Of a DNA stretch of 64,000 nt, positions 41,357 to 59,277 are shown one piece after another. The notes beneath the pieces are model-generated. The model did not search any database and had not been told where the DNA came from. It was given only the letters and a program-made list of their open reading frames with translations. The stretch is from Actinobacteria bacterium OV320 (GTDB taxonomy: Bacteria; Actinomycetota; Actinomycetes; Streptomycetales; Streptomycetaceae). A program made the translations under genes and the position numbers. The stretch is from NCBI GenBank assembly GCA_001298545.1, contig LJCX01000019.1:124001-188000 (forward strand), given 5' to 3'. The number at the start of each line of letters is the position of its first letter. Position 1 is the stretch's first letter.

Positions 41357-41390
41357 CCGGCTACCGGCTACCGGCTACCGGCTACCGGCT
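41356..41390. repeat. Five tandem copies of ACCGGCT
   Basis: Exactly five head-to-tail copies of the heptamer ACCGGCT begin at the last base of the HAD stop codon and end at the terminator stem. Slippage at this site would not affect the coding region but could move the terminator. Confidence 0.85.
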
Positions 41391-41424
41391 GTCGGCCGCC
41401 GAGCCCCGGGCCCCGGCGGCCGAC
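41391..41424. terminator. Bidirectional hairpin terminator between HAD and SLT genes
   Basis: GTCGGCCGCCG (41391-41401) pairs with CGGCGGCCGAC (41414-41424) around a 12-base GC-rich loop. The convergent HAD and transglycosylase genes end on either side, so the hairpin can serve both. Confidence 0.75.
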
Positions 41425-41456
41425 AACCGGTGACCGGTGACCGGCCGGCGGGACGG

Positions 41457-52970: not shown

Positions 52971-53456
52971 TCAGTGCACGCAGAACTCGTTGCCCTCCGG
53001 ATCCGCCATGACCACCCACTGCCCGGACGGCTCCTTCACCTCGCGCAGCACGCTCGCCCCCAGCGCCGTCAGCCGCTCGACCTCTCCTGCGCGCAGCTCC
53101 GCACCGGGATGCAGATCGAGGTGGAGCCGGTTCTTCACGGTCTTCGCCTCCGGGACCCGCTGGAACAGCAGCCGCCGTCCGAGCCCGGTCCCGCTGTCGG
53201 GGTCGAACGGGTCGTCGGGATGGCGTACGGCGATCAGGTCCCGGAAGGCCGGGCGGCCGTGGAACTCCAGCGTCGCCGCCCCCGGCAGCGCGCCGAGCTC
53301 CAGCAGCCGCTCGATGAGCGCGCTGTTGTCCTCGACCTCGTAGTGCAGCGCTCCGGCCCAGAAATCGGCCTGCGCGTGCGGGTCGGCTGAGTCGACGACG
53401 AGCTTCCAGTGCACGGGCGTGGGCCCGGCCTCGGGTACTCCAGATGTCTCGGTCAT
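52971..53456 (-). CDS. VOC-superfamily (glyoxalase-like) protein
   Basis: 161 aa with two beta-alpha-beta-beta-beta modules. The first starts VHWKLVVDSADPHAQADFWAGALHYEVED and the second at KNRLHLDLHPGAELRAGEVERLTALGASVLREV, ending WVVMADPEGNEFCV, the diagnostic glyoxalase/bleomycin-resistance-like finish. Metal-binding positions are plausible at His17, His115 and Glu157. The substrate cannot be inferred. It is followed by a short GAC-repeat spacer and lies in the same direction as the RarD-like gene upstream. Confidence 0.87.
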   Translation of the reverse strand: MTETSGVPEAGPTPVHWKLVVDSADPHAQADFWAGALHYEVEDNSALIERLLELGALPGAATLEFHGRPAFRDLIAVRHPDDPFDPDSGTGLGRRLLFQRVPEAKTVKNRLHLDLHPGAELRAGEVERLTALGASVLREVKEPSGQWVVMADPEGNEFCVH

Positions 53457-53573: not shown

Positions 53574-54731
53574 CTACGGCTTGGTGAGGGGAGGGACTCC
53601 CGCCTCCGGAGCGGGGGCGCCGGCCGCACCGGTGACGGCGACGACACCGGAGACACCGGGGTCGGCAGCGCTCGCGGAGGCACCGGGGGCCACGCTCTCC
53701 ACCTCCGGAACGGCCCCGGCAGGGCCGGTGGCCCCAGCAGCGCCGACCGCGACAGCCGCGTCGACCGCGCCCGTCGAACCGGCGGCCACGCCGGACACCT
53801 TCGCCCTGCTCTCGGTGATCGCGGGGCCGAGTGTGCGGGCCGCCCGGCGTGAGGTGCGCAGCGCGTCGCCGGTGAGCAGCACCAGCGCCAGCCACACCAG
53901 CGCGAAGCCGGCCCAGCGCTCGGGGGGCATGGCCTCGCCGAAGTAGAGGACGCCGAGCAGGAACTGGAACACCGGCGCCAGGTACTGGAGCAGACCCAGC
54001 GTGGACAGCGGCACGCGGATCGCCGCCGCGCCGAAGCAGACGAGGGGGAGCGCGGTGACGAGACCGGTGGAGGCGAGCAGGGCCGCGTGTCCGACGCCCT
54101 CGGTCGCGAAGGTGAGGCCGCCGTGCGCGGACAGCCACAGCAGGTAGCCCAGCGCGGGCAGGAACTGGATGGCGGTCTCGGCGGCCAGTGACTCGACCCC
54201 GCCGAGGTTGACCTTCTTCTTCACCAGCCCGTAGATCGCGAAGGAGAAGGCGAGGGTGAGGGAGATCCACGGCGGGCGGCCGAAGCCGATGGTCAGGACC
54301 AGTACCGCCGAGAAGCCGATGCCGACCGCCGCCCACTGTGCGGGCCGCAGCCGTTCCTTGAGGATCAGCACACCCATGGCGATGGTGACCAGCGGGTTGA
54401 TGAAGTAGCCGAGGGAGGCCTCGACGACGTGACCGCTGTTCACGGCCCAGATGTAGACGCCCCAGTTCACGGTGATGACGGCCGCGGCGATCACGACGAG
54501 CCCGAGCCGGCGCGGCTGCCGCAGCAGCTCACCGGCCCACGCCCAGCGCCGCACGACGAGCAGCGCGGCGGCGACGAAGGCCAGGGACCACACCATGCGA
54601 TGGGCGAGGATCTCGGTCGCCCCGGCCGGCTTGAGCAGGGGCCAGAAGAGGGGGACCAGCCCCCACATCCCGTACGCCGCGAGGCCGTTCAGCAGGCCTG
54701 TCCGGCCTTCACTCTTCGACGTCCCGGCCAC
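53574..54731 (-). CDS. rarD: EamA/RarD-family transporter
   Basis: About 385 aa with ten transmembrane helices in two EamA halves. It starts LLNGLAAYGMWGLVPLFWPLLKPAGATEILAHRMVWSL, the RarD signature, and later WGVYIWAVNSGHVVEASLGYFINPL. The GTG at 54731 is preceded by AAGGAGG five bases upstream, an ideal Shine-Dalgarno. An ATG at 54758 lacks one. Beyond residue ~305 is an 80-residue Ala/Gly/Val low-complexity tail absent from E. coli RarD (296 aa). The transported compound is unknown. A 54-base palindrome lies upstream. Confidence 0.88.
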   Translation of the reverse strand: MAGTSKSEGRTGLLNGLAAYGMWGLVPLFWPLLKPAGATEILAHRMVWSLAFVAAALLVVRRWAWAGELLRQPRRLGLVVIAAAVITVNWGVYIWAVNSGHVVEASLGYFINPLVTIAMGVLILKERLRPAQWAAVGIGFSAVLVLTIGFGRPPWISLTLAFSFAIYGLVKKKVNLGGVESLAAETAIQFLPALGYLLWLSAHGGLTFATEGVGHAALLASTGLVTALPLVCFGAAAIRVPLSTLGLLQYLAPVFQFLLGVLYFGEAMPPERWAGFALVWLALVLLTGDALRTSRRAARTLGPAITESRAKVSGVAAGSTGAVDAAVAVGAAGATGPAGAVPEVESVAPGASASAADPGVSGVVAVTGAAGAPAPEAGVPPLTKP

Positions 54732-54780
54732 GGGCCCCTCCTTCTCACGTTCAGGCATGCGTGGACGAAGGTAACGCCGA

Positions 54781-54834
54781 CCACCCCTGTCTGTCATGCC
54801 CGTATCGCCATACGGTCATGACAGACAGGGGTGG
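54781..54834. other. 54-base near-perfect palindrome (nested inverted repeat)
   Basis: CCACCCCTGTCTGTCATG (54781-54798) is the exact reverse complement of 54817-54834. Inside it, CCGTAT (54800-54805) and ATACGG (54810-54815) pair around CGCC, with only the 54799/54816 pair mismatched. The whole can form one 24-pair hairpin. It lies between the end of the NmrA gene (minus) and the RarD start. It may be a terminator for the former, an operator for the latter or a remnant of a mobile element. Confidence 0.9.
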
Positions 54835-54884
54835 CGTGGTGTGGGGCCGCGCGAGGGCCCTCGGGGGAGGGCCGGCCCTTGAGG

Positions 54885-55739
<855 letters not shown>

Positions 55740-55806
55740 GGCTCAGAACTCCTAGTGGGGGCTGCGGGTCTGCCACTGACCCTAGGAGAAGCACTAACCA
55801 AGCGAA

Positions 55807-55843
55807 AGTACCCACTTTGAAGTAAGGTACTAGCATGGTAGTA
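55807..55843. promoter_or_regulatory. Overlapping inverted repeats at the HxlR start, candidate operator
   Basis: AGTACC (55807-55812) pairs with GGTACT (55826-55831), and TACTA (55828-55832) pairs with TAGTA (55839-55843). The elements overlap the regulator's start codon and sit between the divergent genes. This is the expected position for an autoregulatory HxlR operator that also represses the quinone reductase gene. Confidence 0.5.
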
Positions 55844-56245
55844 AGTATGCAGGTGGGTACGGTCGAAGCGGAGGGCATGTGTCCGCACCGACTCGTCCTC
55901 GAACATGTCACCAGCCGCTGGGGTGTCCTGGCACTGATCGAGCTGCTCGACCGCTCGCACCGGTTCAGCGAGCTGCGCCGGGCGATCGGCGGCGCGGTGG
56001 GCCGGCCGGTCAGCGAGAAGATGCTCACCCAGACCCTCCAGACCCTCGAACGCGACGGCCTGGTGCACCGTGACGCCAAACCGGTCATCCCCCCGCGCGT
56101 CGACTACTCCCTGACCGACCTCGGCCGGGAGGCGGCCGAGCAGGTGCGCGCGCTCGCCCTGTGGACGCACACCCGGATGCCGGACGTGGAGCAGGCCCGC
56201 CGGACATACGACGAGGCCCGGGAACTCCGCTCCCGGGCCTCGTGA
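55835..56245 (+). CDS. HxlR-family transcriptional regulator with conserved Cys16
   Basis: 136-aa winged-helix regulator. The family core is LEHVTSRWGVLALIELLDRSHRFSELRRAIGG followed by VSEKMLTQTLQTLERDGLVHRD and VDYSLTDLGREA. A single cysteine at position 16 (MCPHRLVL) sits where HypR and QorR carry their redox- or electrophile-sensing thiol. AAGG seven bases upstream supports ATG 55835. Divergent from the QorB-like gene, which it most likely represses until the cysteine reacts. The 3' end of the gene folds into a strong hairpin. Confidence 0.9.
   Translation: MVVSMQVGTVEAEGMCPHRLVLEHVTSRWGVLALIELLDRSHRFSELRRAIGGAVGRPVSEKMLTQTLQTLERDGLVHRDAKPVIPPRVDYSLTDLGREAAEQVRALALWTHTRMPDVEQARRTYDEARELRSRAS
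56212..56242. terminator. Hairpin at the HxlR 3' end, between convergent genes
   Basis: CGAGGCCCGGGA (56212-56223) pairs perfectly with TCCCGGGCCTCG (56231-56242) around a seven-base loop. The stem lies in the last codons of the HxlR gene and only 17 bases from the end of convergent korB, so it can terminate both. Confidence 0.75.
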
Positions 56246-56258
56246 ACCGCTCCGCGCC

Positions 56259-57330
56259 TCAGCCGACGACCGTCCAGGTGTCGCCGCCCGCCAGCAGCGC
56301 CCCCAGATCGCCCTTGCCGTGCTGCTCGATCGCCGCGTCCAGCTGGTCCGCCAGCTGGGTGTCGTAGACCTGCCGTTCGAACGAGCGCAGCACACCGATC
56401 GGCGTGTGGTGCAGGGTGTCCGGGTCGGCCAGCCGGGACAGCGCGAAGGCGGTGGTCGGGGACGCGGCGTGCGCGTCGTGGACCAGCACGTCCGCCTCGT
56501 TCTCCGGGGTCACCGTGACGACCCGCAGATCGCCGCTCGCCGGATCGCGCACGACGCCCCGCGCGCGGTCCGCCCCGAACCGGATCGGCTGTCCGTGCTC
56601 GAGCCGGATCACCGCCTCCTCCGCCGACTGCCGGTCCTTCAGCGCCTCGAACGCGCCGTCGTTGAAGATGTTGCAGTTCTGGTAGATCTCGACCAGCGCC
56701 GTGCCGGGGTGGGCGGCGGCCTGGCGCAGCACCTCCGTCAGATGCTTGCGGTCGGAGTCGATGGTCCGCGCCACGAACGACGCCTCCGCGCCGAGCGCCA
56801 GCGACACCGGGTTGAAGGGCGCGTCCAGCGAGCCCATCGGCGTCGACTTGGTGATCTTGCCGATCTCCGAGGTGGGCGAGTACTGGCCCTTGGTGAGCCC
56901 GTAGATCCGGTTGTTGAACAGCAGGATCTTCAGGTTCACGTTCCGCCGCAGCGCGTGGATCAGATGGTTGCCGCCGATGGACAGCGCGTCGCCGTCGCCC
57001 GTGACCACCCACACGCTCAGATCCCGCCGGGAGGCGGCGAGGCCGGTCGCGATGGCCGGCGCCCGACCGTGGATGGAGTGCATGCCGTACGTGTTCATGT
57101 AGTACGGGAAGCGCGACGAGCAGCCGATGCCCGACACGAAGACGATGTTCTCCTTGGCCAGCCCCAGCTCCGGCATGAAGCCCTGGACGGCGGCCAGGAT
57201 CGCGTAGTCGCCGCAGCCGGGGCACCAGCGCACTTCCTGATCGGACTTGAAGTCCTTCATGGACTGCCGGGCCACGGCCTTGGGGACGAGCGAGAGCGCC
57301 TCGATCGTGCCCGTGCCTTCCGTCGAGGTC

Positions 57331-57338
<8 letters not shown>
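56259..57338 (-). CDS. korB: 2-oxoglutarate:ferredoxin oxidoreductase subunit beta
   Basis: 359-aa thiamine diphosphate-binding beta subunit. The [4Fe-4S] cysteines include WCPGCGDY (C39, C42), GIGCSSR and QNCNIF. The ThDP/Mg motif runs from VVTGDGDALSIGGNHLIHALRRN to LLFNNRIYGLTKGQYSPTS. It decarboxylates 2-oxoglutarate with KorA to succinyl-CoA and passes electrons to ferredoxin. ATG 57338 overlaps the korA stop by eight bases. The form with ~350 aa beta and fused gamma-alpha subunits is the oxygen-tolerant actinobacterial and mycobacterial type. Confidence 0.96.

Positions 57339-59277
<1,939 letters not shown>

Follow-up and report, generated by a model that had tools for sequence, protein, structure and literature searches.

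A conserved palindrome in Streptomyces may nest a putative rarD promoter-operator inside an nmrA terminator

Introduction

What is a near-perfect palindrome of 54 bases doing between an nmrA-like gene and the transporter gene rarD? The palindrome lies at positions 54781..54834 of a 64,000-nucleotide stretch of Actinobacteria bacterium OV320 DNA (contig LJCX01000019.1, family Streptomycetaceae), referred to here as the window. The original prediction offered four readings of this structure: a terminator, an operator for rarD, a REP-like element or the remnant of an insertion site. We asked which of these fits the structure of the palindrome, its occurrence among related genomes and its relationship with the genes on either side.

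Results

The palindrome has no strand of its own and consists of two 25-nt arms (54781-54805 and 54810-54834, 96% complementary) separated by a 4-nt loop. These form 24 of 25 possible Watson-Crick pairs, with the outer 18 being exact and the inner six making up a second repeat, so that the description of a nested palindrome with exact 18-base arms and a single mismatch was accurate. The half-sites CTGTCATG and CATGACAG, to which the original prediction had drawn attention as its paired ends, were also found. When the window was scanned for stems (loops of 3-20, one mismatch allowed) the palindrome ranked first with 24 pairs, followed by stems of 17, 14 and 14 pairs, and it is indeed far longer than any other hairpin in the window; the best stems in five block-shuffled windows had 11-15 pairs. 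Folded as RNA (80 nt), it reached −53.1 kcal/mol (z = −6.15), which was equalled by 0 of 200 shuffles, and the minus-strand fold of the region (130 nt) gave a z of −6.77, with 0 of 200 shuffles as good. The second-longest stem in the window (17 pairs, 41384-41431) sits within a 44-nt inverted repeat (77%) at 41364-41451 which contains CCGGCTA-type repeats. A search against Rfam returned seven matches, none of which were above the gathering threshold and six of which placed microRNA models on the palindrome, and a consensus scan listed neither a promoter nor a terminator there.

The order of transcription on the minus strand is a korB-like gene (56259-57365), the nmrA-like gene, which encodes an NAD(P)-binding protein (54885..55739; PF13460, PF05368), the palindrome, rarD and a glyoxalase-like gene (52971-53456), while between korB and nmrA an hxlR-like gene (55835-56245) runs the other way, on the plus strand. 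The stop codon of nmrA precedes the palindrome by 50 nt, and a second, weaker hairpin was predicted between the two on the minus strand (54853-54879). The product of rarD (53574..54731, minus strand) is an EamA-family transporter, matching TIGR00688 with 209.5 bits against a cut-off of 130.15 and, on a longer frame, PF00892. This longer frame starts at 54797, inside the palindrome; the likely start, judged by eye, is the GTG at 54731 behind AGGAGG. It should also be noted that hxlR carries at its 3′ end a 14-bp hairpin (56211-56243) which reaches the hxlR stop codon and faces korB, and which is likely to be a terminator shared by these two genes. According to PMC7244524, SCO4590 of S. coelicolor is a glyoxalase, from which the rarD of that species would be SCO4591. 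We found no mention of SCO4591, SCO4592 or SCO4593 in the open-access papers searched.

We found the palindrome at a single place in its own 10.1-Mb genome, where a search for a second site matching the core (≤ 3 mismatches) again yielded only this one place. At the same threshold, 185 of the 293 genomes searched from the order had the 30-bp core, namely 185/273 in the genus of the window and 0/20 outside it. No genome had more than one match in either direction, forward and reverse matches being the same palindrome read both ways; the control for this search gave no match in the 293 genomes. A search of 296 genomes of the class found the core in 21, all of them from the 28 which belong to the genus, and among the matches listed from named records (at least 117 stretches) 80 of 80 were Streptomyces, with one match each. 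The rarD gene itself was present in 291 of the 293 genomes of the order. The original prediction had proposed conservation in relatives as a check: 229 of the 279 whole loci searched (loci from one genome can overlap) contained the strict site, once per locus, and in 227 of these 229 a rarD start followed 48-159 bp downstream (median 71 bp), the other two being pieces without a rarD match. The “unique, unconserved” occurrence which had been named as the adverse outcome was therefore only half observed, as the palindrome is unique but strongly conserved.

The inner 32 bp of the palindrome (54792..54823, minus strand), which read TGTCATGACCGTAT-GGCG-ATACGGGCATGACA on the rarD strand, form a dyad which is conserved at rarD and which we regard as a putative operator. 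Within its rarD-proximal half-site lies ATGACA (54792..54797, minus strand), a putative −35 hexamer for rarD, followed after an 18-bp spacer (54774-54791) by TACCTT (54768..54773, minus strand), a putative −10 hexamer. We measured the distance from ATGACA to TANNNT in 199 distinct sites, which were sought near rarD matches only (20 loci without a rarD match and 26 without a site at the cut-off were left out, as were duplicates and loci near an end); it was 18 bp in 181 sites and 17 bp in 17, and was not found in one. The hexamers are thus spaced as in a promoter, falling within 16-18 bp of each other and at a constant distance among relatives. Conservation by column was near maximal at GTCATGACCGTAT and ACGG-N-CATGAC, low at two loop positions and upstream of the core, and climbed again at the −10 region, GGCG(T/C)TACC(T/G)TC. 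The most conserved part of the dyad was the distal half-site, which lies outside the hexamers. The nmrA side showed low conservation and, by eye, no −10 hexamer, and the idea of a symmetric bidirectional promoter was dropped.

The single mismatch was itself conserved, with pairing at this position in 0 of the 199 distinct sites: the left base was A in all 199, this A having belonged to the retrieval patterns, and the opposite base, which was left free, was G in 125, A in 70, C in 4 and T in none. This indicates that the two half-sites are not equivalent, and a reason for this may be that one of them doubles as the −35 hexamer.

Since most loci were retrieved using the core, its conservation is partly a product of selection. 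We bypassed this by examining 48 genomes from which the strict core is absent (40 of 88 such genomes within the genus and 8 outside it), in which rarD was located by its protein. ATGACA (≤ 1 mismatch)-N17/18-TANNNT was found upstream of rarD in 40 of the 40 diverged congeners, and 39 of them also had a GTCA-like upstream half-site at the right distance; outside the genus, promoter and dyad were both found in 3 of 8 genomes. Among shuffled upstream sequences, promoter or dyad occurred in 0 of 2400. Judged by eye, the deep form of the site is TGTCAnnnCCrT-N8-ACGGnnnTGACA. These results suggest that the arrangement of promoter and paired half-sites is old and that part of the genus has refined it into the near-perfect palindrome. 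As the half-sites stay in diverged forms while the inner pairs break, it appears to be as DNA, and not as an RNA stem, that the core is maintained. In three diverged genomes (L232, L244 and L256) the distal half-site appeared by eye to be duplicated 18-23 bp farther upstream, as if a regulator could bind there in tandem.

We also looked for further targets of such a regulator, and for its gene. A part of the core with 16 specified bases was matched, with 3 mismatches allowed, 25 times in the forward and 16 times in the reverse direction, and its backward control 16 and 18 times, which is background. With a relaxed dyad, the rarD site was the only one with < 2 mismatches in 8 of 8 genomes, and total matches exceeded the control in all 8. 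A recurrent match with 2-3 mismatches was rejected as an operator, being the coding start of a gene for a protein beginning MIDHAHDL in the three of these 8 genomes in which it was looked at; the surroundings of the start codon of this gene (L280:1000-1300) are conserved almost letter for letter in three aligned genomes. No regulator gene was found next to the site in 10 scanned genomes without an adjacent nmrA, which came from 12 such loci examined for upstream frames; the upstream gene was korB-like in 8, TauD-like in one and of no family in one. HxlR is the nearest candidate reader of the dyad, but an unlikely one because the dyad persists where korB and not nmrA adjoins rarD. Across the divergent starts of nmrA and hxlR lies another inverted repeat (55803-55865), whose 13-nt arms (GTACCCAC/GTGGGTAC) are 85% complementary and separated by 37 nt; it is likely to be an HxlR operator and would suit HxlR better than the dyad does. 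We found no printed account of the site in the open-access papers searched, the word “RarD” was absent from the main text of two ArgR papers, and in the one Streptomyces paper among the listed matches to the letters of the sequence these belonged to a primer. We know of no regulator which fits the half-site TGTCAnnnCCrT.

Outside the dyad, the palindrome is completed by two 11-nt outer arms, one on the rarD side (54781..54791), which also lies in the promoter spacer, and its partner on the nmrA side (54824..54834). The ten positions which flank the core on either side are variable yet pairing, and the two arms co-vary. In the 157 sequences where nmrA lay within 150 bp, each of pairs 1-10 was Watson-Crick in 84-133, and pairing dropped sharply thereafter, to 29 and 50 at pairs 11 and 12. 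The types of pair also varied: pair 9 was A-T in 45, G-C in 21 and C-G in 18, and pair 2 was C-G in 65, G-C in 30 and T-A in 11. Among 71 tree-independent genome pairs we counted 23 compensatory double changes in register at pairs 4-10, versus 0, 7, 5, 3, 5 and 3 when the arms were slid by −3, −2, −1, 1, 2 and 3 positions; counting against pairing, 35 double changes in register broke pairs and there were 150 single changes.

The length of the outer stem was associated with nmrA. At least 8 of the 10 outer pairs were formed in 89 of 161 sites with nmrA nearby versus 5 of 32 otherwise, after six rows with too little upstream DNA had been dropped. In 18 tree-independent near/far contrasts the stem was longer with nmrA in 13, shorter in 3 and tied in 2, which is of only moderate significance (sign test: P = 0.021; Wilcoxon: P = 0.029); before these rows were dropped there were 22 contrasts, with 15 versus 5 (P = 0.041 and 0.051). 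Separate hairpins of ≥ 11 pairs showed the reverse, being found at 18 of 38 sites without an adjacent nmrA versus 7 of 161 with nmrA nearby (4/38 and 21/161, respectively, after shuffling), in an unfiltered set in which some loci short of upstream DNA were counted as lacking nmrA. Such a pattern would be expected of an outer stem which serves nmrA as its end signal.

With a stable GC-rich stem-loop which follows the nmrA stop codon by 50 nt, the palindrome looks as a U-poor terminator would, and compensatory change was seen in the outer stem only. The palindrome is not followed by a classical U-run, with 3 T in 10 bases. According to two sources (PMC12207403, PMC8269248), Streptomyces terminators often lack U-tracts and contain 3-4 U among the first 10 nt, and their hairpins are the longest and most stable and show significant co-variation.

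Discussion

We regard the palindrome as a real, conserved and functional-looking element in which two ordinary functions overlap. The reading which we favour, and which we consider probable on the evidence of sequence comparison, is that of a rarD promoter-operator nested inside a U-poor nmrA terminator. Two of the four originally predicted readings would thus apply together, the rarD operator to the inner 32 bp with their promoter and the terminator to the outer ~10 bp with nmrA upstream, while the REP-like and insertion-remnant readings fall away. The inner dyad, together with TACCTT 18 bp downstream, would be the promoter of rarD, with the −35 hexamer supplied by the rarD-proximal half-site and the distal half-site positioned about two helix turns further upstream. 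A putative transcription factor, probably a dimer, would bind both half-sites and control the access of RNA polymerase, whether by repression or by activation. In the RNA, the outer ~10-11 bp would pair, with the core as apex, and give the nmrA mRNA a long 3′-terminal stem, which may act as a U-poor terminator of the Streptomyces type (or as a 3′-end stabiliser) and keep nmrA transcription out of rarD.

The alternative which survives best, though we think it rather unlikely, is that only the promoter-operator is functional and that the outer stem is a by-product of template-switch repair, which is known to perfect quasi-palindromes and does not require selection to do so. It can account for the 72 of 161 nmrA-adjacent sites which have < 8 outer pairs; under the favoured reading, since few of the 161 have separate strong hairpins, the terminator there would have to be dispensable or of another kind. 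It can also account for the excess of pairing over re-shuffled partners at sites without an adjacent nmrA (5.26 vs 3.99 pairs, n = 31). Counting against it are the link between stem length and nmrA in the tree-independent contrasts, the separate hairpins at sites without an adjacent nmrA and the sharp end of pairing after pair 10.

A promoter without a dedicated regulator, in which the dyad serves RNA polymerase or a nucleoid protein as an extended recognition sequence, would explain why there is one site per genome and why no regulator gene adjoins it in the 10 scanned genomes without an adjacent nmrA. We consider this improbable, as the hexamers leave out the distal half-site, which is the best conserved part of the dyad and is kept in nearly all of the diverged congeners.

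More improbable still is a terminator alone, with a long hairpin ending the nmrA mRNA and a core conserved by accident or for RNA stability. The palindrome is the most stable stem of the window, is well placed after the nmrA stop codon and has a co-varying outer stem. Against this, the core persists at sites which lack an adjacent nmrA and have an unpaired outer stem, diverged forms hold the half-sites and the distance to the −10 hexamer though inner pairs break, and the mismatch never becomes a pair. A REP-like element or mobile-element remnant, as which a palindromic and intergenic sequence might be read, is effectively ruled out by the single place in the genome (at most one per genome in 293) and by the same sequence preceding rarD at one fixed position across the genus.

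Beyond the nested arrangement itself, the two functions could be coupled, although we consider this doubtful. The same DNA would then serve as operator and terminator, with the bound rarD regulator forming a roadblock which sharpens nmrA termination and nmrA transcription evicting the regulator, so that rarD answers to its neighbour; the regulator would be a previously undescribed one, present throughout Streptomyces and with a single chromosomal target.

If the favoured reading of a nested promoter-operator and terminator is correct, this is a regulatory site found across the genus, with a single target, in front of a transporter gene which is nearly universal, and one 54-bp palindrome can hold both a promoter-operator and a terminator in a GC-rich genome. 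We found no description of its putative regulator as far as we searched, and the 32-bp dyad is a ready bait for finding it. The locus is of interest chiefly as an orphan operator and for its compact nested design, and is also a caution that a near-perfect hairpin between two genes is not necessarily a terminator alone.

Dyad operators in bacteria can generally overlap a −35 element. The rarD dyad resembles these in that its half-sites are inverted, lie about two helix turns from each other and keep a fixed distance from the −10 hexamer, with one of them overlapping the −35 hexamer, and differs in that there is one site per genome and the half-sites are not equivalent. Terminators which overlap the signals of a downstream gene also have a precedent in E. 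coli, where the frd terminator is the ampC attenuator. In both cases the signal which ends a gene overlaps those which start its downstream neighbour, but the dyad described here is nested in the stem, upstream of the −10 hexamer, and is not in the leader. With the U-poor (I-shaped, “HS-U-lack”) terminators of Streptomyces, as described in PMC8269248 and PMC12207403, it shares a long, stable, GC-rich and co-varying stem, a short loop and 3 U in the first 10 nt. It differs from them in that its apex is the sequence-conserved dyad of the next gene’s promoter.
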